A stretch of 34,794 bases of DNA from Symbiobacterium sp. (GTDB lineage Bacteria > Bacillota > Sulfobacillia > UBA995 > UBA9673), in the NCBI GenBank assembly GCA_020725405.1, contig DYFB01000008.1, forward strand, positions 1-34,794, given 5' to 3'. The notes beneath the pieces were generated by a model. That model saw nothing but the letters and a program-made list of their open reading frames with translations, did not search any database and was not told the DNA's origin. This document shows, in pieces, positions 266 through 25,554 of this stretch. Made by a program: the position numbers and the translations under genes. Positions within the stretch are counted from its first letter, which is position 1. Every line of letters begins with the position of its first letter.

Positions 266-1120
266 TCACCCCCGCCCGAGGAGACCGGCGAGCATCTTGA
301 GACCTCGCAGGAGCTCATCGCGGCCGGAGCCGGTGGGCCGGTGGACCGGGTCGACCGTCCCGTACTCGAGGGTGACTGTCCCGGGCGTCGTCACCGATAG
401 GACGCGGGCCAGCCGGTCGGCGTCCTCCTCCTCGACGGCCCCGTGCCGGTCGCGCAGGACCCCATCCACCCAGAGGGGACGGTTGGCGTGGAGTTCCCGG
501 ACGGCCGCGAGGGGCAGCCCTACGAGGTATTCCTCGAAGGACAGGCCGAGGTAGAGGGCTGATATCTGGGCGTGGGCGACGTCCAGTAGGAGCCCGCAGC
601 CGGTCGTCTCGACCAGCTCGCGGATGAAGTCGGGCTCAACCACGCACCTCACCGAGCCGGGCCTTCCCGGCCGCACCCGGGTCCCCCAGTGGACGCCGTT
701 CTCGACGAGCACGGGAAGCCCCGACCAGGCCTGGAGGCCCTCGATATTCCGCCGGACGCGGTCGAGAATGGCCCGGCGCTCGGCCTGGCTCTGACGGTCG
801 GGAGAGGTCAGGTCCGGGGCGTCGGACGGCAGGAGATAGAGATGCACCTGGAGTTCGGCGGCCCGGCTGGCGTGGACGGCCCCCCTGAGGTCCTCGAGGT
901 CGAGGCGGTCCATAAGGTCTGCGCTGCCGGCCGTGAGGGGCTGGCCCCAATGGTGGAGGATAACGGGGAGCCCCGAGCTCCGGGCGAGAGCGATGTCGGC
1001 GTCCCGAGCGGCCGGCCCCGAGCCGCTGGTCGGGACCTTGACGGCGTCGACGACTACCAGACCTTCGGCGAGGAGGTCGAGAAGCTCGTGCGAGAGGTTC
1101 GCCGCGAGGCGGGGGGTCAT
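266..1120 (-). CDS. DUF692 / MNIO-family TIM-barrel metalloenzyme
   Basis: This 284-residue protein has the layout of the DUF692 family, now called multinuclear non-heme iron-dependent oxidative enzymes (MNIO, e.g. MbnB, TglH). A full set of likely metal ligands can be read in family order: His56/His57, His93, Glu140 (VLVENG), Asp180 and His183 ([14 protein letters not shown]), His211 (VRELHANRP), Asp224 and His226 (DRHGAV) and Glu252 (VTLEYG). Known members modify cysteine-containing peptides, but no partner protein or precursor is evident here, so the substrate is unknown. The ATG overlaps the uvrB stop by 4 bases (ATGA), so the gene is translationally coupled to uvrB and ends the operon. 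The alternative reading is a sugar-phosphate isomerase-like TIM barrel, which fits less well because of the DUF692-specific motifs. Confidence 0.75.
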
Positions 1121-12296: not shown

Positions 12297-13249
12297 CAGC
12301 CCCGCCCCCCTCCCTTGCCTTTCCTGGTCCCGCTCCTGCCGTCCCGCCCTGGGCCCGGACCACCCGGAGCGGCCCCGGCCGTTCCAGGGCTCTCCGGGCC
12401 TCCCGAAGCCCCGAGAGCCCGCAGGGCCTCCTCCAGCTGCTCTCCGGATGGGGCCTTCCCGTGCCACTCGGCCCGGTTCTCCATGAAGCCGACCCCCCGC
12501 CCTTTGACCGTCCGGGCGAGGATGACCGTAGGGCGGCCGGGCTGGCGGTCGGCCGTCTCCAGGGCGTCAAGAATCTGGACCATGTCGTGCCCGTCGATGG
12601 AGAGGACGTTCCAGCCGAAGGCTCGCCACTTGTCGACCAGCGGCGAGATTGACATAACCTCCTCCACCGGGCCGTCGATCTGAAGGCCGTTGCAGTCGAC
12701 AATGGCCGTAAGGTTGTCCAGCTTAAAGTGGACGGCGGACATGGCCGCCTCCCAGACCTGCCCCTCCTGGAGCTCCCCGTCGCCGAGCATTACGTAAACC
12801 CGCCAGGCGGCCCGGTCGAGCTTCGCAGCCGCGGCCAGACCGACCCCGAAGGAGAGCCCCTGGCCGAGAGAGCCGGTCGACGCCTCGACGCCCGGGGTGC
12901 TCTTCATGTCCGGATGTCCCTGGAGGATGGAGCCGAGACGCCTGAGACCTCGGAGCTCCTCGACCGGGAAGAAGCCGCGCTCGGCGAGGACGGCGTAGAG
13001 GGCCGGAGCGGCGTGTCCCTTGGAGAGCACGAAGCGGTCCCGCTCCGGCCAGGCCGGATCCGCGGGGTTGAGCCTCAGCACGCGGAAATACAGGGCTGTC
13101 AAGAGGTCGGCCGCGGACAGCGACCCTCCCGGGTGGCCCGACCCGGCCAGGCCGATCATCCCGATGATGTGGCGCCGCACCCGGGCGGCGACCTGCCGGA
13201 GCTCCTCCGGACCGGCCCGGGGCCCGGTCAGACTCGTCGTTCCGCTCAA
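12296..13249 (-). CDS. Transketolase, N-terminal (TPP/PP-binding) subunit
   Basis: This 317-residue protein binds the thiamine pyrophosphate diphosphate group. It carries the phosphate-site histidines His39 (GSGHPGGSLS), His79 (SKGHAAPALYA) and His112 (GHPDMKSTPG), the GSLGQGLSFG motif, and the GDG...N metal-binding motif starting at residue 156 (MLGDGELQEGQVWEAA) and ending at Asn187. The C-terminal 45 residues are a Gly/Pro/Arg-rich tail outside the fold. The TTG start overlaps the stop of the DUF5693-TagA gene by 4 bases, so the split transketolase is co-transcribed with a wall-polymer glycosyltransferase. A supply of sugar precursors for the polymer is possible but unproven. Confidence 0.92.
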   Translation of the reverse strand: MSGTTSLTGPRAGPEELRQVAARVRRHIIGMIGLAGSGHPGGSLSAADLLTALYFRVLRLNPADPAWPERDRFVLSKGHAAPALYAVLAERGFFPVEELRGLRRLGSILQGHPDMKSTPGVEASTGSLGQGLSFGVGLAAAAKLDRAAWRVYVMLGDGELQEGQVWEAAMSAVHFKLDNLTAIVDCNGLQIDGPVEEVMSISPLVDKWRAFGWNVLSIDGHDMVQILDALETADRQPGRPTVILARTVKGRGVGFMENRAEWHGKAPSGEQLEEALRALGASGGPESPGTAGAAPGGPGPGRDGRSGTRKGKGGGRG

Positions 13250-16002
13250 CGTTCTTCACCGCCACTCTCCGACCCGGACCCGGGGCTCGTCATCCTGGAT
13301 CGGGGCGCCCGCCCGAAGGCGGCTCCCAGAACCGCGAGGACGAAGCCGGCGAGAGCCGGCACCCGCCTGAGACGGGCCCGGGGGCTCGACAAGATGCGAT
13401 ACAGCCACTCAAGGTTCAGCCGCCGGACCCACGCCGGCGCCCTCCGGGTGTCCCCGGAGAGGACGTCCAGAGAACCGCCGGCTCCCACGGCGACCACGCC
13501 GCCCAAGGCTCCTCGCCGCGCCGCGAGCCAGAGCTCTTGCTTGGGACTGCCGAGGCCGGCCACGAGGAGTTCGGGCCCGGCCGCCCGGATGGCCTCGACA
13601 ACCTCGTCGTCATCGGTGAAGTAGCCGTGTTCCGTTCCGACGACCCGGAGGCCGGGATAGCGAGCCGCCAGCGCGGCCGCCGCTCGTGCGGCGACCCCCG
13701 GGCGGGAGCCGAGGAGGAAGACCCGTAGAGGCCCGCTCTCACGGGTACGCTTGAAGAGCCCGGTGAGGAGGTCGACCCCCGCGACCCGGGTGGCCAGAGG
13801 TCGCCGGCTCAGGACCCGGGAGGCCAGGACGACTCCGACGCCGTCCGGGACCAGGAGGTCGGCCGAGTTGAGGACGGCCCGGAACGAGGCGTCCCGGCTG
13901 GCCCGGTAGAGCATCTCCGGGTTCGGCGTGAAGACAAGGCGGGCCCCACCGGTCCGTCCGGCCTCCCGGATGAGGTCGGATACCTGGGCCACGGCTCCGT
14001 CGAGGCTGACCCGATGGATCCGCACCCCGAGAATGTCGACGGCAGCGGGCCGGGCGTTGGGCCAGGTGTCGGACGGAGACCCGGGTCCGTCCGGTCCGCT
14101 CCGGAGGCCGGAGCCGCCGCTAGGCCGCTGCCGGGGGAGAAACGCGGACGTGACCCAGACTGCAGCCAAGCCCAGAGCCAGGCCCAGGAGGGCGCCGTTC
14201 GCTGTGCGGGCGAAGGTGAGGGCCAGCGGAGTCCGGACGTGCTCGAAAGAGTTGACAACGGAGACCAGGCCGACGGCCCCGACCGCCGCCCAGGCCGGGA
14301 GCCACCGCCTCCGACCCGTCCAGGCGAGGTAGGTCCCCAGGATGAGAGCGGGATGGCCGACGAGGAACTCCTTCAGGCGGGGTTGGGCGTAGAGGGCTCG
14401 ATCGAGCCAGGTCCTCACGGCCACCTCGGCCGACGTCACCGGAAGCCACGGCTGGTCGCCCGACCGGCCGACGTAGACCACCGCCGCCAGGCCCACAGCC
14501 AAGGCCAGGAAAACATGGCCGACCTCCAGGGGCCTCCCGGCGAGGGAGCGGAGCTGACGCCCCAGGGACCGGAGACGCGCGCCGGGCCCATCCGAGGAGC
14601 CCGACGCGAGCCAGGCCGCGCCTCCAAGGACGGCGACGGGCGGGACGACATAAGATAGCTTCACCCCGCGGAAGTACTGGATCTCCATGGCGAAACTGGC
14701 CTCGGCCATGAACCCGGCCACGACCAGCCCGCCCAGGACGGCCACACCGACGGCCGCGCCGACGTGTCGCAGGCCGGCCAGCCACGGATGCGGCCGCTCC
14801 CGAATCCCTTCGCCGGTGGGCTCGAACCACCGTGCGGCCACCCACAGCCCGGCCAGGGTCGGGTAGACGAGAGCGGCCCAAAGGGCGCCGAGTTTCCGCA
14901 CCGAAGGCTCGACTCCTCCGCCCCACCCCCCCAGGAGGGTGACCGCCGTCAGCCCGACGAGGGCGGCCGTCAGCGCGGCTCCTACCTTCGGAGCCCTCCT
15001 CCACCGGCCGAGGCGCCCCAGAGACAGGAGATCGAGGGTAAGGAGGGTCGCCGCCCAAGGCCCCAGGACGAGGACGACGAGTAGCGCCGGCGGCGCGGTA
15101 AAGGCCCCGGACGCGGGCCGCGCCGGGCCGACCTGGAAGCCGCCCCGTTCGAGGGCCCGCCGGACTTCCTCAACATAACGCAGGTTCGCCGCCAGGAGTC
15201 CGGTCTCACCCCCGGCCCCCGGGCGGGTCGTCCACCAGGCCGGAGGCTCGGTGGGAAAGCCGTAGAGGTCGAGCCAGACAGCCCGAAGGCTGCGCTCCTT
15301 GACCGAACGGGCTATCTTCGCCGCCACCCGTTCGGGCGAGTGCGCGCCGACGGCCGGAGGGTGATAGATCCGGACGAACGCGTAATCGAGAAGGGCCGCC
15401 AGCCGCTCGGTCCCGGCGAGGGGGACATAGCTCAGCTGGCTCGGGTCCTCCACGAGACCGACCTCGAGGCCGAGCTCCTTCAGGCCGGCGACAGTCCGCC
15501 CGAGAGCCGCCGGGTAGCCGGGGATGGCCTCGCCGTCGAAGACGACGATTCCGGCGACGACGCCTCGGGCGACGAAGGAGCCGATCCCGTCGAGGAGAGC
15601 CTCAACCTCCGCTTCCGTCTGGCCGGCCCGTCCCCGGAGGAGGGGAGCGTACCGGGGCCCACCCGGCCGGCCGAGAGCTGGACCGCGCTCGGCCTCCAGG
15701 CTCGCGGCGAAGGCCGGGTCGGCGATGACCGAAGTCAGTCCGGCGCGGGCGAAGCTTTCGAGGACTTCGGCCACGGGCCGCCCCTCCCGGTCAGCCACCT
15801 GGACGACGGCGCCGAGCTCGGCCGCCAGCTCGACCGTCCAGCCCTGGGCCCGGTCATGGGCGATCCGGGGTCCCACGGCCAGCAGGGCGGCCAGGCCGGC
15901 CAGAGCGAGCAGGACACGCAGGACTGAGCGCACAGGTGGCGGCCACAGCGGTGGATGGGCCGCGCCGCCCGGGACTCCCGTCAGCGAATCTCCACTCCCC
16001 AT
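13246..16002 (-). CDS. DUF5693 membrane protein fused to TagA/WecG glycosyltransferase
   Basis: This 918-residue protein joins two families. Residues about 25-630 are DUF5693-like: a signal anchor, an extracytoplasmic domain (about 45-300) and a polytopic membrane region. That region holds GRSGDQPWLPV (near 516), LKEFLVGHPALILG (near 546) and a VNSFEHVRTP segment, all shared with the giant DUF5693 protein at 20989. After a Pro/Gly/Ser linker, residues about 655-895 form a complete WecG/TagA/CpsF (GT26) domain with TPNPEML, VPDGVGVV, RVAGVDLL, VAGLGSPKQELWLA and LEWLYRI motifs. TagA-type enzymes add ManNAc or a related sugar to undecaprenyl-linked primers. The fusion places DUF5693 in polymer assembly. 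The start lies 3 bases after the preceding stop with no clear ribosome-binding site, so re-initiation is likely. Confidence 0.88.
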   Translation of the reverse strand: MGSGDSLTGVPGGAAHPPLWPPPVRSVLRVLLALAGLAALLAVGPRIAHDRAQGWTVELAAELGAVVQVADREGRPVAEVLESFARAGLTSVIADPAFAASLEAERGPALGRPGGPRYAPLLRGRAGQTEAEVEALLDGIGSFVARGVVAGIVVFDGEAIPGYPAALGRTVAGLKELGLEVGLVEDPSQLSYVPLAGTERLAALLDYAFVRIYHPPAVGAHSPERVAAKIARSVKERSLRAVWLDLYGFPTEPPAWWTTRPGAGGETGLLAANLRYVEEVRRALERGGFQVGPARPASGAFTAPPALLVVLVLGPWAATLLTLDLLSLGRLGRWRRAPKVGAALTAALVGLTAVTLLGGWGGGVEPSVRKLGALWAALVYPTLAGLWVAARWFEPTGEGIRERPHPWLAGLRHVGAAVGVAVLGGLVVAGFMAEASFAMEIQYFRGVKLSYVVPPVAVLGGAAWLASGSSDGPGARLRSLGRQLRSLAGRPLEVGHVFLALAVGLAAVVYVGRSGDQPWLPVTSAEVAVRTWLDRALYAQPRLKEFLVGHPALILGTYLAWTGRRRWLPAWAAVGAVGLVSVVNSFEHVRTPLALTFARTANGALLGLALGLAAVWVTSAFLPRQRPSGGSGLRSGPDGPGSPSDTWPNARPAAVDILGVRIHRVSLDGAVAQVSDLIREAGRTGGARLVFTPNPEMLYRASRDASFRAVLNSADLLVPDGVGVVLASRVLSRRPLATRVAGVDLLTGLFKRTRESGPLRVFLLGSRPGVAARAAAALAARYPGLRVVGTEHGYFTDDDEVVEAIRAAGPELLVAGLGSPKQELWLAARRGALGGVVAVGAGGSLDVLSGDTRRAPAWVRRLNLEWLYRILSSPRARLRRVPALAGFVLAVLGAAFGRAPRSRMTSPGSGSESGGEER

Positions 16003-16683: not shown

Positions 16684-17832
16684 TTGAGAGTCCTCCACCT
16701 GGCGAGCGGGACGGACTACGGGGGAGCAAGAACACACATCTTCACCCTCCTGTCCGAGCTATCCAAGCACATCGAGGTTACTCTGGGCTGCTTCTCCGGC
16801 GGGCCGTTCCTCGAGGAGGCCCGCAGCCTCGGCCTTGACGTCCACAGCCTGGGGCAGGTCACCCGCTACGACCTCGGCGCCATCGGCCGACTGGTGACCC
16901 TTGTCCGGAGTCGGGGCATCGACCTCGTCCACTGCCACGGACCACGGCCGAACGTGCTCGCGGTCCTGGCCCGGCGGCGGCTCGGACGGCCTCTGGTGAC
17001 CACCGTCCACAGCGATTACCGGCGGGACTTCGCTGGAGATTTCTTGAAGAACATTGTTTTCAGCCGGCTCAACGGGTGGGCTCTGCGGCATTTCGACCGC
17101 TACCTGGTCGGGCTCGGGGTGGAGGAGTCCGTGCTCCAGCTCGGCGTCCCCCCGGCCGTCATCCGGCCGCTCAAGAACGGCCTTGATTTCACCCTCCCGC
17201 TCGTGCCGCCTCGAGACGCCGTGCTGGCCGAGCTCGGCCTCAGGGAGCCCGACGGGGCGGTAATCGTCGGCATAGTGGCCAGACTTCATCCGGTGAAATG
17301 TCACGAGATCTTCCTGGCCGGCGCGGCGGCCGTCGCCCGCCGCCACCCCCAGGCCCGCTTTCTCGTCGTGGGTGACGGCCGCATCCGGGGGACCCTGGAA
17401 AACCTGGCTGGACGGCTGGGTATCGCCGACCGGGTCCGGTTCCTCGGCCACGTCGTCGACCCCGACCACGTCTTCTCGATACTTGACATAAACACTCTGA
17501 CCTCGTTCAGCGAGACCCAGCCCTACGCCCTTCTCGAGGGAGCTCGCTGGGGCGTGGCGACCATAAGCTCGCGGGTCGGAGGCATCCCGGAGCTCATCAT
17601 CGACGGGCAGACCGGCTATCTCTTCGAGCCCGGGGACCTCGCCGGCTTCACCCGCCGCCTGGACGAGCTCGTCGCCGACCCCGACCTCCGGCGCAAGCTG
17701 GGAGACAACCTCCGGGAGCACGGGCGGCGGAACTTCACGCCGGCCGTCATGGCCCGGACGTGCCTTGAGGTCTATAGCGAGCTTCTGAACGGGGGAAAGC
17801 CGGGGAGGGATTCGTCCGATGCCGGTGATTGA
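16684..17832 (+). CDS. Glycosyltransferase family 4 (GT-B fold)
   Basis: This 382-residue cytoplasmic glycosyltransferase has the GT-B N-terminal signature (LHLASGTDYGGARTHIFTLL), the DLVHCHGPRPNVLA strand and the family 4 donor-binding region (SETQPYALLEGARWGVATIS with GGIPELI). It likely transfers a nucleotide-activated sugar onto a lipid-linked surface-polymer intermediate; neither donor nor acceptor can be read from the sequence. The start is TTG with a GAAGG sequence 11 bases upstream, and the protein begins at the canonical MRVLHLASG. It is the first gene of the plus-strand operon ending in csaB, and it overlaps the next gene by 14 bases. Confidence 0.9.
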   Translation: MRVLHLASGTDYGGARTHIFTLLSELSKHIEVTLGCFSGGPFLEEARSLGLDVHSLGQVTRYDLGAIGRLVTLVRSRGIDLVHCHGPRPNVLAVLARRRLGRPLVTTVHSDYRRDFAGDFLKNIVFSRLNGWALRHFDRYLVGLGVEESVLQLGVPPAVIRPLKNGLDFTLPLVPPRDAVLAELGLREPDGAVIVGIVARLHPVKCHEIFLAGAAAVARRHPQARFLVVGDGRIRGTLENLAGRLGIADRVRFLGHVVDPDHVFSILDINTLTSFSETQPYALLEGARWGVATISSRVGGIPELIIDGQTGYLFEPGDLAGFTRRLDELVADPDLRRKLGDNLREHGRRNFTPAVMARTCLEVYSELLNGGKPGRDSSDAGD

Positions 17833-18313
17833 CGAGAGGGGCCGCCTGTTCGGGCGGCTGAACGTCATCAACGTCGTTCTGGTCCTCATCGTCCTGGCCG
17901 CGGCGGGAGCCGGGGTCTTCAAGCTCCTGGCCGTCGAGGAGCAGGGACTCGTCGAGACCAGGACCGTCCTCATCACCTTCGAGGTCACGGGGGTGCGGCA
18001 GCCGTCGGTCGACGCCGTCAAGGTCGGAGAGGACGTGGCCGGGTTCGAGTCACAGCTTCATCTCGGCCAGGTGGTCGAGAAGCGAGCCGAGCCGCACCGC
18101 GAGCCGGTGGCCACGGCCGACGGACGCATCGTCATGGCCGAGGTCCCCGACCGCTTCGACCTCTTCATCGTCGTGCGGGCTCAGGCCGTCGCCGGACCAC
18201 GGGCCGTAACCGTGGCCGGACGGGAGACGAAGATAGGCATCCAGCTGCCCCTGAGCGGCCGCCTGTTCAGCTTCAAGGCGACCATCGTCGGCATCGAGGA
18301 GGTCCCTGATTGA
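17819..18313 (+). CDS. DUF4330 family membrane-anchored protein
   Basis: This 164-residue protein has the DUF4330 pattern: a short cytoplasmic N-terminus (IDERGRLFGRLNVINVVLVL), one membrane segment (about residues 17-38) and a beta-rich exported domain. The family has no established function. The ATG is preceded by GGGGAGGGA with an 8-base spacer. It overlaps the glycosyltransferase by 14 bases and the next gene by 4, so the operon is tightly coupled, which suggests a structural or regulatory role in making or exporting the surface polysaccharide. Confidence 0.8.
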   Translation: MPVIDERGRLFGRLNVINVVLVLIVLAAAGAGVFKLLAVEEQGLVETRTVLITFEVTGVRQPSVDAVKVGEDVAGFESQLHLGQVVEKRAEPHREPVATADGRIVMAEVPDRFDLFIVVRAQAVAGPRAVTVAGRETKIGIQLPLSGRLFSFKATIVGIEEVPD

Positions 18314-19845
18314 CGTCGGCGGCAGCCAGGCTTCTCAGGGTCTGGGACGAGAGTTGGCCGGGTTCGCTGGCCCGGGTCGTCTGGTCGCCCGGCGCCCGAA
18401 CGACCCGCCCGGGGGAAGGTCTGGCCCTCGTCGGCCTCGGTGCGCTGGCGGCTTTCAGCGCCTGGGCCTTCCACCTCTCGGGCGGGGGTCTGGCCCGCGC
18501 GACAGCTCTGGTCGTGAGCCTGGGGGTCGCGGCCGCCGACCCCGTCGCCGGCCTCTACGCCGTTCTGGTCGTCCTTCCGTTCGTGCCCGACTGGGCCGCC
18601 CTGGTCCTCACCGCCGTCCTTCTCCTCTCCACCCTCCTGCGGCGCTCCGGGGACGCCGGGCGGGTCCTCCGGCAGCCGGCGGCCGCGGTGCGGGCGGTGG
18701 CCGGCGACCTCCTGTCGCGGCTCGACCGTCCGGTCCTCCTTTTTGCCGCTCTGCTGGTCGTGGCTACGGTCACGTCCGTCGCCCCGGCCGGAAGCCTGCG
18801 ATATCTCGCCATCTGGGGGCTCGCCCTCGGGCTCTACTGGGCGGTGGCCGGCCTGGCCGGACGGGGAGACGGCACGGCTCTCGTCCGGGTGGCGGCAACT
18901 CTCGGCCTGACGGCGGTGCTCGCCGCCCTGTACGCCCTCTACCAGTTGGCCGTCGGCGTGCCCGTCCAGGCGGCGTGGATAGATTCGGCCCTCTTCCCGC
19001 GGGAGGGGACGAGGGTCTTCTCCTTCTGGGGGAACCCGAACGTCTTCGCCCTGCATCTCGTTCTGACCGGTCCTCTTCTCGCCGCCTCCCTCTGGACGGC
19101 GGGCACGCGGCCGGCCCGGGCCGGGGTCGGCCTGGCCGTCCTCTTGGCCGGACTGGCCCTCGTCCTGACCTTGTCGCGCGGCGGTTGGTTCGCCCTGGGG
19201 GTCGCCGTGCTCTTCCTCGGCCTACTTCGGGACCGCCGCATCCTGGTCGTCGGCCTCCTCGCCGCCGCGGCGGCCGCCCTCCTCGCTCCGGAGGTGGTCT
19301 CCTGGCGCGCGGCCACCCTTCTCCGCCTGGACGACCCCACGGCCGTCCACCGCATCCGGGTCTGGGAGGCCTCGGCCCGGATGGCGGCCGATTTCTGGTA
19401 CGCCGGTCTCGGGCTGAGCTGGCGCGCGTTCACAGCCATCTACCCCCAGTACTCCATCGGAGGGCGCTTCGCCTTCCACGCCCACAACCACTACCTTGAG
19501 ACCCTCATCGAGCTCGGGGTTGTCGGGTTCATCGCCCTGCACTGGCTCATGGTGAGGCCCATCGGCTGGGCTGTGCGCCTGGCCCGCCCGGCCCGCCTGA
19601 CCGCGCCGGGCGTCGTCCTCACCGCGACCGCGGCCGCCATCCTCGGCAGCCTGGCCTTCGGAGTCGGCGAGCCGGTCTTCTACCTGCCCCGTCCCATCCT
19701 CATCGCCTGGGCCGTCCTCGGCCTGGCCGCTGCGGCCCGTTCGGCGACCGCGCCCGCGGGCGGCACGGCCGGTGACCGCGGCCTACGGACGGTCCCCGGG
19801 AACCTCGTCGGCGGGCCGGCGACGGGAGGGACGCCCGGGCCGTGA
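18310..19845 (+). CDS. O-antigen ligase/polymerase-like membrane protein (Wzy/WaaL family)
   Basis: This 511-residue protein has about ten to twelve membrane segments and the Wzy_C-type motif near residue 392 (HAHNHYLETLIELGVVGF). Upstream of this lies the large loop with the WGNPNVFALHLVLTGPLL and LSRGGWFALG elements typical of O-antigen ligases and polymerases. In Bacillota such proteins polymerise lipid-linked repeat units or transfer polysaccharide to a wall acceptor. Here the neighbouring CsaB suggests a pyruvylated secondary wall polymer. The TTG start lies 7 bases after GAGGAGG and overlaps the DUF4330 stop (TTGA). The Gly/Pro-rich C-terminus is probably unstructured. Confidence 0.88.
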   Translation: MTSAAARLLRVWDESWPGSLARVVWSPGARTTRPGEGLALVGLGALAAFSAWAFHLSGGGLARATALVVSLGVAAADPVAGLYAVLVVLPFVPDWAALVLTAVLLLSTLLRRSGDAGRVLRQPAAAVRAVAGDLLSRLDRPVLLFAALLVVATVTSVAPAGSLRYLAIWGLALGLYWAVAGLAGRGDGTALVRVAATLGLTAVLAALYALYQLAVGVPVQAAWIDSALFPREGTRVFSFWGNPNVFALHLVLTGPLLAASLWTAGTRPARAGVGLAVLLAGLALVLTLSRGGWFALGVAVLFLGLLRDRRILVVGLLAAAAAALLAPEVVSWRAATLLRLDDPTAVHRIRVWEASARMAADFWYAGLGLSWRAFTAIYPQYSIGGRFAFHAHNHYLETLIELGVVGFIALHWLMVRPIGWAVRLARPARLTAPGVVLTATAAAILGSLAFGVGEPVFYLPRPILIAWAVLGLAAAARSATAPAGGTAGDRGLRTVPGNLVGGPATGGTPGP

Positions 19846-20951
19846 CCAGCGTGCTTATCTCCGGCTATTACGGCTTCGATAACTGGGGCGACGAGGCCGT
19901 CCTCGAGACGGCCGCCGCCGGGCTAGCCGCAGCCGTCCCCGGGGTGGAGATAACCGTCCTCTCGAGCAACCCGGAGAAGACGGCCGCGCGCTACGGCCTG
20001 CGGGCCGTCAGCCGGACCGACCCGCGCGCCGTGCTGCGCGAGCTCCGGCGGACCGACATGCTTGTCAGCGGCGGCGGCAGTCTCCTGCAGGACGTCACGA
20101 GCAGCCGGTCCCTCTGGTACTACCTCTCCATAATCCTCGCCGCCGAACGGCAGGGCAAGAAGGTCATGCTCTACGCGAACGGAGTGGGGCCCATCAGCCG
20201 CCCCTGGAACCGGCTGGCCACCCGCCTCGTCCTCGACCGCGTTTCTCTCATCACCGTCCGGGGTCCAACCTCGCGCCGGTTCCTTGAGGAACTCGGGGTG
20301 ACACGACCGCGGATCGTCGAGACAGCCGACAGCGCCTTCGCCATCGAACCGGCTCCGGTCGAGCGGGTGGCCGAGATTTGCGGGGCCGAGAGTCTGCCGG
20401 ACCTGACCGATCCGACCACCCGGCCGTTCGTCGGCGTCGTCGTCCGACCGTGGCGCGGCACGCGGGCCCTCGAGGCCGCGATGGCCCGGGCCGCCGACTA
20501 CATCCAGGACCGGCTCGGCTACGGGGTCCTTTTCCTGCCGGTCCATCGGGACGCCGACCTCCCGGTCGTGGAACGCATCCGGGCGGCGATGCGCGGGGGG
20601 AGTCACATTCTTCGCGACCTCTACTCGGCCCGGGAGACGGTCGCCCTCCTCGGGCGGCTGAGGTGGATCCTGAGCATGCGCCTCCACCCGCTCATCTTCG
20701 CCGCCGTCGGCGGCGTGCCGGCCCTCGGTCTCGTCTACGACCCCAAGGTCGAGGAGTTCCTCTCACAGGCTGAACAGGTTTCCGTCGGACCGGTCGAGCG
20801 GGTCACCCTCGAGGACATCCTGCTCGGCATAACCGAGATCGAGGCGGACTACGAGAACCGCGTCGCCCGGCTCGGGAGCGTGGTCCGTGAGCTCCGCGAG
20901 AGGGCCCGCCTGAACAACCAGCTCGCAGCCGAGCTCCTGACGGGCCGGTGA
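19842..20951 (+). CDS. csaB: Polysaccharide pyruvyl transferase CsaB
   Basis: CsaB adds ketal-linked pyruvate to the secondary cell wall polymer, creating the ligand for SLH-domain S-layer proteins. The 369-residue protein has the family pattern: GYYGFDNWGDEAVLETA at the N-terminus, a VSGGGSLLQDVTSSRSLWYY segment, YANGVGPI, VRGPTSRRFLEELGV and a C-terminal SMRLHPLIFAAVGGVPALGL donor-binding region. The GTG start overlaps the ligase stop by 4 bases (GTGA). It is the last gene of the plus-strand operon and converges on the giant DUF5693 gene. Its presence implies that SLH-anchored surface proteins are encoded elsewhere in the genome. Confidence 0.93.
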   Translation: MTSVLISGYYGFDNWGDEAVLETAAAGLAAAVPGVEITVLSSNPEKTAARYGLRAVSRTDPRAVLRELRRTDMLVSGGGSLLQDVTSSRSLWYYLSIILAAERQGKKVMLYANGVGPISRPWNRLATRLVLDRVSLITVRGPTSRRFLEELGVTRPRIVETADSAFAIEPAPVERVAEICGAESLPDLTDPTTRPFVGVVVRPWRGTRALEAAMARAADYIQDRLGYGVLFLPVHRDADLPVVERIRAAMRGGSHILRDLYSARETVALLGRLRWILSMRLHPLIFAAVGGVPALGLVYDPKVEEFLSQAEQVSVGPVERVTLEDILLGITEIEADYENRVARLGSVVRELRERARLNNQLAAELLTGR

Positions 20952-20968: not shown

Positions 20969-20989
20969 GGCCGGAACGGGGTCCCGGCC
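20969..20989. terminator. Hairpin between convergent csaB and DUF5693 genes
   Basis: A 6-bp perfect stem (GGCCGG and CCGGCC) with a 9-base loop lies in the 37-bp gap between two convergent stop codons. A symmetrical hairpin could end transcription from both sides, but there is no U-run on either strand. Confidence 0.45.
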
Positions 20990-23900
20990 TAGGACCGCCG
21001 CCTCGCGCCGAGCCACGCCGCGCCCGCGGCACCCACGAGAAGAGCCGCGGCCGCCACCAGCGCCGGTCCGGCCGCCCCCGAAGTTGCCACGGAGAAAGCC
21101 GCTCCGGCCCCCCCGAAGGCCGCGGCCGCCGCGGTGGCTCCCTGCCGACCGGCTTGTCCGCCGGGCCCGACCCCGGCCCGGATGAGCGCCAGGGCGGCGA
21201 CCGACCCGCCGACGGCCCCCAGACCGCCGGCCACGACCACCAGACCGAGGGCGACGAGACCGACGGCGACGAGGAGACCCCCGAGGCCCGGCGTCAGCGG
21301 CGTCCACCACCACCCCGGGACGATCCCCGGTGTACCACGCGGCCGGGGCCAGAGGAGGACCCCCGCCAGGGCCGGAGCCGCCAAGGGCAGGAGCGGCGAG
21401 ACGGCGGCCGGGGAAAGCTCGAGGACCGCCCGGGCGTCGGCGAGGAGCACCCGCCCGCCCAGACCGCCGATGCCGGCCGCGGCAAGGATCGCGGCCAGGG
21501 CCGCTCCGCGAAGCCCGGAGCGCAGGGCCCGGCCGGCCAGAGCCGCTCCGGCCAGCGGCACGAGGACCAGAGCGAAGAAGAGGGCGGAGTCCCGGCCGGG
21601 AGACGCGGCCAGGGGTCCGGGGAGGACTACGGCCGGCCGGAGCGGCCGGGACGGACCGGTCGGCCGGCCATGCCCGGCGAGGGACAGGGAGAGGTCACGC
21701 GCGAACTCGACCACCGTCTCGGGGTCCTGCGGCCCGCTGAGCCGCACGTAGAGGAGATCGGCGCCGCGAGACGCAGCCCGCGGCACCGCCTCTACCTTGG
21801 GACCGGCGACGGCGACCGGGAGGACCCGCGCGTAAGCGTAGGCGAGGACCGGGGCGACCTCGGTCGCCCCAAGCTGGCCCAGGTAGCCGGGGCGGTCCGG
21901 GTGCAGGAGGACCCCGGCGGCGAGCCCGCGGCCGGTCAGAACGGCCGCCGCGCTGGATAGAGCCTGTGGGTACCCGGGGAACTCCCCGCCAGCCGGGACG
22001 GCCGTGGACCAGTCGAGGCCCAGCCGATCCAGTGACGCCCGGAGTTCGTCCAGGCTGGACGCGAGACGCTCAGGATCCCCTCCGGGCGGGTTCTGGGGCC
22101 TCGGGGCGACTAGAAGCCCGCTCCCGGCCACAGGACCGGCCCGCCAGACAACCTCGGGTCCGTAGAACCCGAGGCTGGCCCGTTCCAAGGCCTCCCGGGG
22201 GTACAGCGTCCGGAGAACGAGGGTTCCGCCCACCCTGGCGTGGAGAGTGATCCGCCCGTTCGAACTCAAGGCGAGACGGGCGGCGATATCCTCGACTCGG
22301 GGACCGGCGGCCAGGAAGACATAGCTTCCGGCGGCCTCGAACTCCGGGTGGCCGGCGACGATCGCCTCCAGCGTCCCGGCCAGGCCCAGGCGGACCCGGG
22401 CGGCCAGCTCCCGGCCATCCCGCACCTCAAGGCTCCCGTCCGCCGACCAGCGGACGAGGTCGCCCAGCGTGGTCTCGGCGAGGCCCACCGAGGTCACCCC
22501 GACCGAGGCAAGCTCGGCGGCCAGGGAGGCCAGCCGGGTGTCGTCGTCTCCGGTGAGCCGGCGGAGGTCCCCGAGGTCGACAGCCACCTCTGCCGGCCGG
22601 GGTCCGGAACCGGCTCCCACCAGGGCCGGCCAGTCCACACCGGCGAAGGGAGTCACCAGGAGGAACAGAGCCCCGAGACCGATGACCAGGGCGGGGACCC
22701 ACCCCAAGATGGTCCGGCCCGCCCCCGGCGGCCACAAGGCGCGGCGCCCGACCGTCGCGCTGAGAAGACCGGCGGCCAGGAGACCGGCGGCCAGGCCGAG
22801 GCCCAGCCCGACCGCGGTTCTCGCCGCCGAGACGGCGGCCGGGATGTGGAGGTGGGCGAAGGTGTTGAGCACCGACGAGACGCCGACCCCGGCCAGGGCG
22901 GCCAGGACGTAGCCCCAGCCCCGCTTCAGGACCGTCGGGCCGAGCCAGGCCCCGAGAAGCAGGGCCGGGTAACCGATGAGGAACTCCTTCGTCCGCGGTC
23001 TCACCCCGAGGAGGTCGGCGAGCCGGGCCCGGAGGGTGAACTCGAGGTCGCTGACAGGGACGAGCGGAAAGTTGCCGCTCCGGCTGATGTAGAGGACGAC
23101 CACACCGAGCGCGGCGACGGCCGAGACGACGGCACCCAGGGTCAGCGGGCGGCGGAGCAGCCCGGCCAGCCAGGCGCCGGCGGACCCGGCCCGGCCGGGA
23201 TCGAGCCGCCAGTAGAGGTAGAGAGCGAGGGCGGGGCCGGCAGCCAGGGCAAGCTTGGTGCCGGGCATCTGGAACGTCCGCAGGAGAAACTCCGGACCTG
23301 CCCCGAGAGCCAGGATGAGAAGGCCTCCGGCCGCCGCGACGAGGCCGGCCCCGACGGCCGTCCGCACGGCGTGGAGCACGGCCGGGAGAGCGAGAGCCGG
23401 CCGAGCCGGATCCACGGGGCCGGCATGGGAGCCCGACGGACCCTCGAGCCAGGCCCGGAAGACCGGGGCGAGGGCCACCACCGGGAAGGTGACGGCACCC
23501 AGGAGAATGAGCCCCTGCAGGATCGCCACTCTCACTCCGGACGAAAGACCCACCGGCAGGGCAAGGGCCGCCGCTCCCAGCACCGCGAGTCCGAGCCTCT
23601 CCAGCCCTCGGGGGAGGCCCAGCCGCCGCCAGGCCAGAGCCGCCCCGGCGAGGACGGCCCACCCGGTGACGACGGTCAGCCACGCGGGAGGTCGCCGGGT
23701 CGAGACGGGCTCCGGCGGGCCGGGCTCGAGCCCGCGGGCGGCAAGCTCCCTCGTGAACCCGGCCACAGCGGCGGCGACTCCGGCCGGCCAGGCCGGGTCG
23801 TCCTTGAACCGCTGCCAGAGGCCGGGCATGGCCACGAGGAGAGGCGCGCCCCTCTCCACGACGCCCTCGGCGAAGAGCTCCGGACGCCCGGTGCTCCAGA

Positions 23901-24786
23901 CGGTCTGCAGCTTGATCCCGCGCCAGCCGGCAGCTGCGGCCAGCTCGGCCGTCCCGGCCGGTTGCGCGGCCGGGTCCACGGCGAAGGGCAGGTCCAGCGC
24001 CCGGAGGTCCGCGCCGGCTCTGGCCGGGCCGCCCGGGAGACCGTAACCCCAGACCTCCCCACCGTCGAAGATGACAGCCACGGCCTCGGTCGACCCCAGC
24101 GGTTCAAGAGCCGCGGCCAAGGACAGGTGGGGCGATTCCCGCGGGTTCTGGAGCTGGACGACGACCCGCAGGCCGGCTCCCCGGGCCGCCTCCAGGTCGG
24201 GCGGGTAAAGACCAAGGCGAGTGTACGGCGCAAGGTCGCCCCTGACAGCCACGGCGTAGACCTGCGGGTCTCCGCTCGAGGTCCCGGCCGCGAAAGAAGC
24301 GACCCTGTCGGCGCCGAAGCGGGCCCGAGCGCGGTCCAGAGCCCACTCGGCCAGGTCTGGATGTCCGGTCAGAAGGAGGGTTACCGGCACCCCGGGCCGG
24401 GCCAGACGCCACCGTTCGAGGTCCGGGAAGCGAGCCGCGGCCGCCTGGGCCTCGGTCCCGCGGAGAGGAGCGCTCTCCCCGCTCAGGCGGAGGACGGTGA
24501 AGTCACCCCTGAAGGCGAGGTCAGCGAGGGTCCTCTCCTCCACGACCACCGCCGTCACCCCGGACGCGGCCAGCTCCCGGAGGACAGCGGCAGGCGAGAG
24601 CCCTCTCTCCAGGCTCTGGCCCTGGACGGACCTCAGGGACACGGCGAACTCCACGGGGGACGGTTCGGGACGGAAACGGCCGTCGAGCGCGAGGCCCGCG
24701 GTCGCCGCCGCGAGACCCGCAACCAGGGCCAGGATGAGCAGAAAAGTCAGGGACCTCTCCGTGGGCAAGGACCTCTCCGCGGGCAC
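20989..24786 (-). CDS. Giant DUF5693 membrane protein with two extracytoplasmic repeats
   Basis: This 1265-residue protein is a DUF5693 family member with an internal repeat. It has a signal anchor, then a first extracytoplasmic domain (about 40-360) and a first membrane block (about 365-705) carrying ISRSGNFPLVPVSDLEF, TKEFLIGYPALLLG and VLNTFAHLHIP. A second extracytoplasmic domain (about 720-1055) and a shorter membrane block (about 1065-1265) follow. The two soluble domains share the LRELAASGVTAVVVEERTL / LAAELASVGVTSVGLAETTL pattern. Function is unknown; it converges on csaB, and a paralogue is fused to TagA nearby, which points to wall-polymer assembly or export. The GTG start has no clear ribosome-binding site, so the exact N-terminus is uncertain. 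It is last in the secA-prfB-LmeA gene group. Confidence 0.82.
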   Translation of the reverse strand: MPAERSLPTERSLTFLLILALVAGLAAATAGLALDGRFRPEPSPVEFAVSLRSVQGQSLERGLSPAAVLRELAASGVTAVVVEERTLADLAFRGDFTVLRLSGESAPLRGTEAQAAAARFPDLERWRLARPGVPVTLLLTGHPDLAEWALDRARARFGADRVASFAAGTSSGDPQVYAVAVRGDLAPYTRLGLYPPDLEAARGAGLRVVVQLQNPRESPHLSLAAALEPLGSTEAVAVIFDGGEVWGYGLPGGPARAGADLRALDLPFAVDPAAQPAGTAELAAAAGWRGIKLQTVWSTGRPELFAEGVVERGAPLLVAMPGLWQRFKDDPAWPAGVAAAVAGFTRELAARGLEPGPPEPVSTRRPPAWLTVVTGWAVLAGAALAWRRLGLPRGLERLGLAVLGAAALALPVGLSSGVRVAILQGLILLGAVTFPVVALAPVFRAWLEGPSGSHAGPVDPARPALALPAVLHAVRTAVGAGLVAAAGGLLILALGAGPEFLLRTFQMPGTKLALAAGPALALYLYWRLDPGRAGSAGAWLAGLLRRPLTLGAVVSAVAALGVVVLYISRSGNFPLVPVSDLEFTLRARLADLLGVRPRTKEFLIGYPALLLGAWLGPTVLKRGWGYVLAALAGVGVSSVLNTFAHLHIPAAVSAARTAVGLGLGLAAGLLAAGLLSATVGRRALWPPGAGRTILGWVPALVIGLGALFLLVTPFAGVDWPALVGAGSGPRPAEVAVDLGDLRRLTGDDDTRLASLAAELASVGVTSVGLAETTLGDLVRWSADGSLEVRDGRELAARVRLGLAGTLEAIVAGHPEFEAAGSYVFLAAGPRVEDIAARLALSSNGRITLHARVGGTLVLRTLYPREALERASLGFYGPEVVWRAGPVAGSGLLVAPRPQNPPGGDPERLASSLDELRASLDRLGLDWSTAVPAGGEFPGYPQALSSAAAVLTGRGLAAGVLLHPDRPGYLGQLGATEVAPVLAYAYARVLPVAVAGPKVEAVPRAASRGADLLYVRLSGPQDPETVVEFARDLSLSLAGHGRPTGPSRPLRPAVVLPGPLAASPGRDSALFFALVLVPLAGAALAGRALRSGLRGAALAAILAAAGIGGLGGRVLLADARAVLELSPAAVSPLLPLAAPALAGVLLWPRPRGTPGIVPGWWWTPLTPGLGGLLVAVGLVALGLVVVAGGLGAVGGSVAALALIRAGVGPGGQAGRQGATAAAAAFGGAGAAFSVATSGAAGPALVAAAALLVGAAGAAWLGARRRS

Positions 24787-24803: not shown

Positions 24804-25514
24804 TTACTGGCCCGAGGTGGCCTTGATGACCATCTGGCCGTCCTCGGCGACGACCTCGGTCCCGGTGAGAGGCAAGGGGAACGCCGTCAGGTCGAGCGAG
24901 AGGTCGGGACGGCCGAGAAGCTCGAGCCAGGTCTCGAGGAACTCCGTCGGCACGATGACGTCATCGACGCTGAAGCCCTCGATACGGAAGGACACCGTCT
25001 TCGGGTCCGCCAGGACGAAGCGGCCCGATAGTGAGCAGAGGAACTCCCGCTCGAGGACGGTGAGATAGCCCGAGATGACCGTGAACTCCGGAGTGATGAG
25101 GACCCGGGGATCACCGAACCCGGGGACGTTCCGGGCGAGGTAGGCTTCGAGGTTGCGCTGGGTGATGGTTATGGTCACCCGAGTCTTCTGGCTCCGCGTG
25201 ACGCGGAGGTCTCCCCCGGCGAGGAGAGCTCTCAAGTCCACCGACGCGTCCTCCAGGGTCACGGCCAGGGCTTCCAGGCTGATGGTCGAGGTCTCCACGT
25301 TGGTTGACGTAATGGTGACGTCATCGAAGTGCCCGAGGAGCATCCTCACCGCGGGGTAGGAGCGAAGCCTCACCCGGTGGTCCCCCGCCGGCCCGAACGT
25401 GGTCTCGAGGGCTTGCTCGACCCCGCGGGCGAGAAGACCGGGGAGGAAGAACTCGCTCAGGACGCCGACGACGATAAGGACCACCACGAGCACGAGGGCC
25501 AAACGCTTCAGCAT
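24804..25514 (-). CDS. LmeA-like phospholipid-binding protein (DUF2993)
   Basis: This 236-residue exported protein has one N-terminal membrane segment (about residues 2-24) and a beta-rich domain with the DUF2993/LmeA pattern (FDDVTITSTNVE, SLEALAVTLEDASVDL, TITQRNLEAYL, VSGRFV-like strands). In mycobacteria LmeA binds lipids and aids mannan elongation; in Bacillota the function is unknown. I chose the ATG at 25514 because GGAGGTG lies 6 bases upstream and the membrane segment begins right after it. The frame extends 13 codons further, through a 12-bp repeat, with no better start. It sits between prfB and the DUF5693 gene, so lipid or polymer handling at the membrane is plausible. Confidence 0.8.
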   Translation of the reverse strand: MLKRLALVLVVVLIVVGVLSEFFLPGLLARGVEQALETTFGPAGDHRVRLRSYPAVRMLLGHFDDVTITSTNVETSTISLEALAVTLEDASVDLRALLAGGDLRVTRSQKTRVTITITQRNLEAYLARNVPGFGDPRVLITPEFTVISGYLTVLEREFLCSLSGRFVLADPKTVSFRIEGFSVDDVIVPTEFLETWLELLGRPDLSLDLTAFPLPLTGTEVVAEDGQMVIKATSGQ

Positions 25515-25530
25515 GGCCGTCACCTCCACG

Positions 25531-25554
25531 CCTGACTCCACGCCTGACTCCACG
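25531..25554. repeat. 12-bp tandem repeat, two copies
   Basis: Two identical adjacent copies of cctgactccacg lie between the prfB stop and the start of the LmeA-like gene. A partial third copy (ctccacg) precedes them. They appear to be replication slippage in the spacer. Confidence 0.8.

Follow-up and report, generated by a model that had tools for sequence, protein, structure and literature searches.

A giant two-unit DUF5693 protein facing csaB in Symbiobacterium sp. and the possible place of its family in wall-polymer assembly

Organization of the locus

The window, i.e. the whole analysed stretch of 34,794 nucleotides from Symbiobacterium sp., contains a large open reading frame on the reverse strand (positions 20989-24786), annotated from a GTG start and encoding a protein of 1265 amino acids that matches the Pfam family DUF5693 (PF18949). 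A TTG codon at residue 7 (window position 24768), preceded by a GGAGAGG motif, is a likelier start than the annotated GTG. The same giant open reading frame is found in two further genera, with 1313 amino acids in genome G001 and 1329 amino acids in genome G002, and is therefore not a sequencing artefact.

As had been predicted, the giant gene faces csaB (19842-20951, forward strand), encoding a polysaccharide pyruvyltransferase with a TIGR03609 score of 281.6 bits against a cut-off of 213.1 bits; the two genes are convergent. On the same strand as csaB lie genes for a GT4 glycosyltransferase (16684-17832) and a DUF4330 protein (17819-18313), both assigned by profile match, and for a Wzy_C / O-antigen ligase-like membrane protein (18310-19845), which overlaps csaB by 4 nt. 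These four overlapping genes (16684-20951) run on the opposite strand from the remainder of the locus. They recur as a set in genome G008, and in Fervidicola, Thermosediminibacter and G078 the set follows the direction of the locus and is arranged differently.

Directly upstream of the giant gene, an LmeA-like protein is encoded (24804-25553, reverse strand), and this gene is conserved upstream of DUF5693 in relatives. A second DUF5693 protein of the window is a DUF5693-TagA fusion of 918 amino acids (13246-16002, reverse strand) with a B-type DUF5693 domain at residues 24-624 and a WecG/TagA domain at residues 714-880. In all three genera with this fusion its barrel is short by about 100 residues, with 13 of the 14 conserved residues described below being kept; many Armatimonadota DUF5693 proteins are likewise without a similar barrel part. 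At the other end of the window, adjoining uvrB, an MbnB/TglH/ChrH-like protein is encoded (266-1120, reverse strand; E 9e-14), belonging to a family known from RiPP peptide modification.

Elsewhere in this genome 14 SLH matches were found on six contigs, together with Wzx-type flippases and an LCP protein. SLH-domain proteins bind, and need, the pyruvylated secondary cell wall polymer (SCWP).

Architecture of the giant protein and homology of its halves

The AlphaFold2 model of the N half (mean pLDDT 88.6, pTM 0.89) shows an anchor helix, an exported domain of alternating beta/alpha barrel-like structure and a membrane block. The TIM-barrel-like domain (residues 45-350; 23737-24654, reverse strand as for all parts of the protein) is modelled with pLDDT mostly above 90 and is further supported by a weak Foldseek match to TIM barrels and by topology prediction. 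It is followed by the membrane block TM2-TM10 (residues 368-675; 22762-23685), defined by the model and topology prediction; including the anchor, about ten helices are predicted in the N half from hydropathy, the positive-inside pattern and a model helix at residues 510-528. Within this block, a predicted outer loop carries the element R-x-G ... E ... R ... RPRTKE (residues 568-601; 22984-23085), nearly invariant across DUF5693, and a second conserved, predicted outer element reads N-x3-H-x3-P ... R (residues 641-656; 22819-22866). The barrel and both conserved loops of the N half are thus predicted to lie outside the cell.

The C half repeats this plan. According to topology prediction it begins with a membrane anchor helix of its own (residues 693-711; 22654-22710), at the place where a stand-alone gene would have its signal anchor. 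This is followed by a second TIM-barrel-like domain (residues 731-1040; 21667-22596) and a degenerate membrane block (residues 1067-1260; 21007-21588). The model of this half has an overall pLDDT of 78.7, with values above 90 over most of the barrel and of about 45-76 in the poorly predicted membrane block. Comparison of the secondary-structure elements in the models showed that the strand and helix order of the C barrel is that of the N barrel. The fusion is predicted to keep the topology, since the N half would end inside and the C half would start inside with its own anchor.

Both halves share the same top Foldseek hit, the TIM barrel of tryptophan synthase alpha, but the similarity is weak (best E 0.009-0.014). 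For the whole model only weak hits were obtained, mostly to TIM barrels, and no solved membrane fold alike was seen among the 50 matches listed. These results support the barrel, and no enzyme class is claimed from them. A sequence search of the PDB gave no significant match.

At the sequence level, the Pfam DUF5693 profile matched the giant protein in two stretches (E 1.1e-103; 348 bits against a cut-off of 29). The N half alone matched end to end (profile positions 3-606; E 6e-88, 294 bits), while the match of the C half alone, also above the cut-off of 29 bits, extended over the barrel and into the membrane block (positions 3-352; E 3e-13, 48 bits). With a profile built from relatives, the C half was matched at E 6e-30 (positions 34-474 of 677). 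Profiles were also used to compare the halves with each other, because direct BLASTP was almost blind, returning one stretch of 49 residues (E 4e-4). Profile-profile comparison of 14 A-type domains, the N halves included, with the three C halves gave a probability of 99.5 and an E-value of 1.4e-22, far beyond chance. The original prediction of two similar soluble domains, each followed by a membrane block, is therefore borne out by models, topology and profiles.

Conserved residues of the membrane block

Alignment of 84 DUF5693 domains places the majority of the nearly invariant positions in the membrane block and not in the barrel. Fourteen residues were scored: R569, G571, E582, R586, R596, P597, R598, K600, E601, P607, N641, H645, P649 and R656. 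They are predicted to lie on the outer membrane face. The N half has all 14, the DUF5693-TagA fusion 13, and the C halves, three of which are known, a single one each. All single-copy DUF5693 proteins examined, and nearly all A- and B-type copies complete over the scored region, score 13-14. Lower scores were obtained for second, separate C-like copies (6/14 in G008, 3/14 in G010) and for some upstream copies (9/14 in G175 and in G006, 5/14 in G007). In several lineages, therefore, the site is retained in only one member of a pair of copies.

The N half shows the hallmarks of the family, a barrel followed by a block with R-G-E-R, RPR-KE, P, N, H, P and R. The C half can be regarded as a degenerate member, since the barrel is present yet one of the 14 residues is left. 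This agrees with two further points of the original prediction, that the core elements would be restricted to the first membrane block and that the second copy had suffered a loss. RSGN-P and RPRTKEFL-G-PALLL occur in the N half and are absent from the C half. They had also been described as common to the TagA fusion, where they are present in slightly varied form (RSGD-P and QPRLKEFL-G-PALIL).

Linkage of the DUF5693 family to csaB and flippases

Among 149 genomes of the phylum, DUF5693 was detected over the cut-off in 95, and 92 of these also have a csaB match. In 84 of the 95, csaB follows DUF5693 on the same strand within 400 nt (domain to domain), unlike the convergent arrangement in the window. 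The same DUF5693 neighbourhood is seen in loci of Armatimonadota, Margulisbacteria and Atribacteria. Four of 14 control genomes (Thermus, Deinobacterium, Thermotoga and Bacteroides) have a DUF5693 match, over the cut-off in three of the four, and those of Thermus, Deinobacterium and Thermotoga also have SLH domains. Three genomes of one family (G103, G140 and G170) carry DUF5693 over the cut-off and gave no csaB match; in the first of them, G103, tagA is located directly downstream of DUF5693.

Flippases recur in these loci. Fusions of DUF5693 to a Wzx-type flippase occur in Cytobacillus and in two further cases (loci L056, L076 and L113), and one to a MurJ-type flippase was identified in Marinisporobacter (L104); these fusions, involving two different flippase families, stand directly upstream of csaB. 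Many other loci have flippase genes adjoining DUF5693/csaB. In Lysinibacillus the unfused order tagA-wzx-DUF5693-csaB is found, and in eight loci a MurJ-type gene directly follows csaB. Furthermore, a CsaB-TagA fusion of 678 amino acids adjoins a DUF5693 gene in G122 (L141, 3393-5429, reverse strand), and two loci (L145 and L146) show the order PGM-DUF5693-csaB-tagA-tagO. Because TagA, CsaB, flippases and DUF5693 are repeatedly fused to each other, the data suggest that they form one assembly line.

In Paenibacillus alvei, where TagA and CsaB were shown to act on a lipid-linked disaccharide, the locus has the order orf1-csaB-tagA-tagO (PMC6030368). This gene order matches DUF5693-csaB-tagA-tagO in two relatives with large genomes, G079 and G120, and orf1 of P. 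alvei is therefore probably a DUF5693 gene. DUF5693 is mentioned in none of the papers searched; a paper on Thermus DrpA/DrpB was checked and is unrelated to the family.

Comparison with known systems and possible function of the family

The SCWP assembly steps after TagA and CsaB, i.e. export, polymerisation and attachment, are stated to be open (PMC6030368, PMC6801904). Since it is almost always encoded beside csaB, DUF5693 is, as judged from gene context, a good candidate for a missing step in wall-polymer assembly. Its co-occurrence with flippases and the conserved charged residues in predicted outer loops suggest that it would act after flipping. For a post-export role in SCWP assembly, WpaA/WpaB of Bacillus anthracis (PF13425) have been proposed (PMC6030368); they belong to a different Pfam family, and no match was seen between them and DUF5693. 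The proposed role is similar to that of Wzy polymerases and WaaL ligases (PF04932), which DUF5693 would resemble in the approximately ten predicted membrane helices, the conserved charged residues at the predicted outer face and the use of flipped lipid-linked sugars. Unlike these, the giant protein carries a large exported TIM-barrel-like domain, and no structurally similar membrane protein was among the 50 Foldseek hits listed for the whole model. It did not match PF04932 either, PF18949 being the sole Pfam family reported at E-values up to 1.

Alternatively, DUF5693 could itself be a flippase or the partner of one, replacing or assisting the lipid-linked sugar exporter of the csaB operon. 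Its fusion to, or position next to, Wzx and MurJ flippases and its roughly ten predicted helices are in line with this, but we regard it as rather doubtful. DUF5693 occurs together with MOP-type flippases and would thus be no simple replacement, and charged residues in predicted outer loops and a large exported barrel suit a substrate that has already been flipped. The giant protein matched neither PF01943 nor PF03023, flippases being encoded as separate genes or as fused partners.

It is unlikely that DUF5693 tailors or trims the polymer at the outer face, as a hydrolase, a transferase or a factor in chain-length control, with Wzy_C serving as the polymerase. The fold of the exported domain is common in glycan-active enzymes, and a Wzy_C gene is present in the loci of the window, G078, Fervidicola and Thermosediminibacter; the Wzy_C protein of the window could be the polymerase, DUF5693 then having a tailoring or chain-control function. 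However, most of the most conserved residues are in the membrane block and not in the barrel, and most DUF5693 loci have no Wzy_C nearby. Within 6 kb, Wzy_C is commoner at csaB loci without DUF5693 (9 of 18) than at DUF5693 loci (2 of 22; Fisher 0.006), in a comparison that was post hoc, counted by hand and based on genomes that are not independent. Genome-wide presence of Wzy_C does not discriminate (40 of 40 genomes tested); only its position near csaB differs.

Probable origin as a fused gene pair

Most close relatives with DUF5693 have two adjacent, separate DUF5693 genes at the position of the giant gene. In relatives of the same order or class the gene order is typically secA-prfB-lmeA-A-B-csaB-tagA-tkt, often with overlaps of a few bases. 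Genome G003, from the family of the window's genome, has separate A-B-csaB-tagA genes. In G008 the layout of the window is found with separate genes: a gene of A type, cut off by the contig end, is followed by a degenerate gene, with an ORF overlap of 20 nt, and the pair converges on the csaB of a GT4-DUF4330-Wzy-csaB block. The csaB of the window is matched with 281 bits by that of G008 and with 196 bits by that of G003. Three genera (G000-G002) have the fused form, which did not turn up in any of the roughly 200 other genomes searched. The assembly containing the window is of draft quality, and the majority of its close relatives are known from metagenome-assembled genomes.

In the phylogenetic tree, the N half is placed inside the clade of the upstream genes, A (support 100/99), and the C half outside it. 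The DUF5693 part of the TagA fusion clusters with gene B, the downstream one, of G003 (99/94). A further tree, of 62 rows, was a quick tree; the degenerate copies form long branches, and the tree program cautions that branches of this kind may be joined falsely. In profile-profile comparison the C half is closer to the B-type (8.6e-31) than to the A-type profile (1.4e-22), and so resembles the downstream gene type in its sequence.

From these sequence comparisons, the giant protein is best read as a fused pair of adjacent DUF5693 genes that is conserved in three genera. The loss of the conserved residues in the C copy probably came before the fusion, since the unfused second gene of G008 also lacks the motif. 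In the history that we infer, a block with a C-type gene would have come between A and B, after which A and C fused; the old csaB would have been lost, so that B became joined to TagA. An internal duplication, as originally predicted, with an in-place copy of the N half arising inside a single gene and decaying afterwards, is quite improbable: both halves are DUF5693 and a tree of the barrel alone does not reject their grouping (p 0.25), but on the full length this grouping is rejected (AU p 0.003), the C half is closer to the B type, and most close relatives have separate adjacent pairs, including the unfused and already degenerate pair of G008. Of the original interpretation, the homology of the halves and the loss in one of them thus stand, while fusion of a tandem pair fits better than duplication.

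Proposed role and significance

As a whole, the explanation that we consider fairly probable is that of a fused A and C pair with a role in SCWP assembly, acting at the outer face after flipping. DUF5693 would work in the assembly of the pyruvylated SCWP to which SLH-domain proteins bind. On the inner face, TagA and CsaB would make the pyruvylated lipid-linked unit. A Wzx- or MurJ-type flippase would turn it over, and DUF5693 would receive the flipped unit at the outer face, where its task would most likely be polymerisation or hand-over to the wall ligase. The earlier idea that one half is active and the other a partner is retained: the N half would carry the working site, while the C half may be a covalently attached, non-catalytic partner that holds the glycan, sets the geometry or couples to CsaB/TagA. 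More tentatively, DUF5693 proteins might in general be membrane enzymes of the outer face, joining pyruvylated SCWP units by polymerisation or ligation in Bacillota, Armatimonadota, Margulisbacteria, Deinococcota and Thermotogota, with several lineages having paired working and non-catalytic subunits, here in one chain.

What is new here is a two-unit form of a known, functionally uncharacterised family. PF18949 proteins typically comprise one unit and about 640-740 amino acids. The N half has the complete barrel and membrane block with all conserved residues; the giant protein joins two units in one polypeptide and, unlike the norm of the family, its second unit is without the conserved membrane-block residues. 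The Wzx- and MurJ-DUF5693 fusions identified here in Bacillales and Marinisporobacter are also giant membrane proteins (about 1160-1260 amino acids) encoded immediately upstream of csaB, but there the partner is a flippase and here it is a second DUF5693.

Polymers of this kind hold S-layers in place in monoderms, and in Deinococcus-Thermus they attach the outer envelope (PMC10628300). An uncharacterised family with so close a link to csaB, and with flippase fusions in some lineages, provides in-silico evidence for a flippase-based route. The giant protein also hints that DUF5693 proteins can function in pairs in which one partner is non-catalytic. The main value of the results lies in the csaB/flippase link of the whole DUF5693 family, which makes the question of SCWP assembly directly testable.
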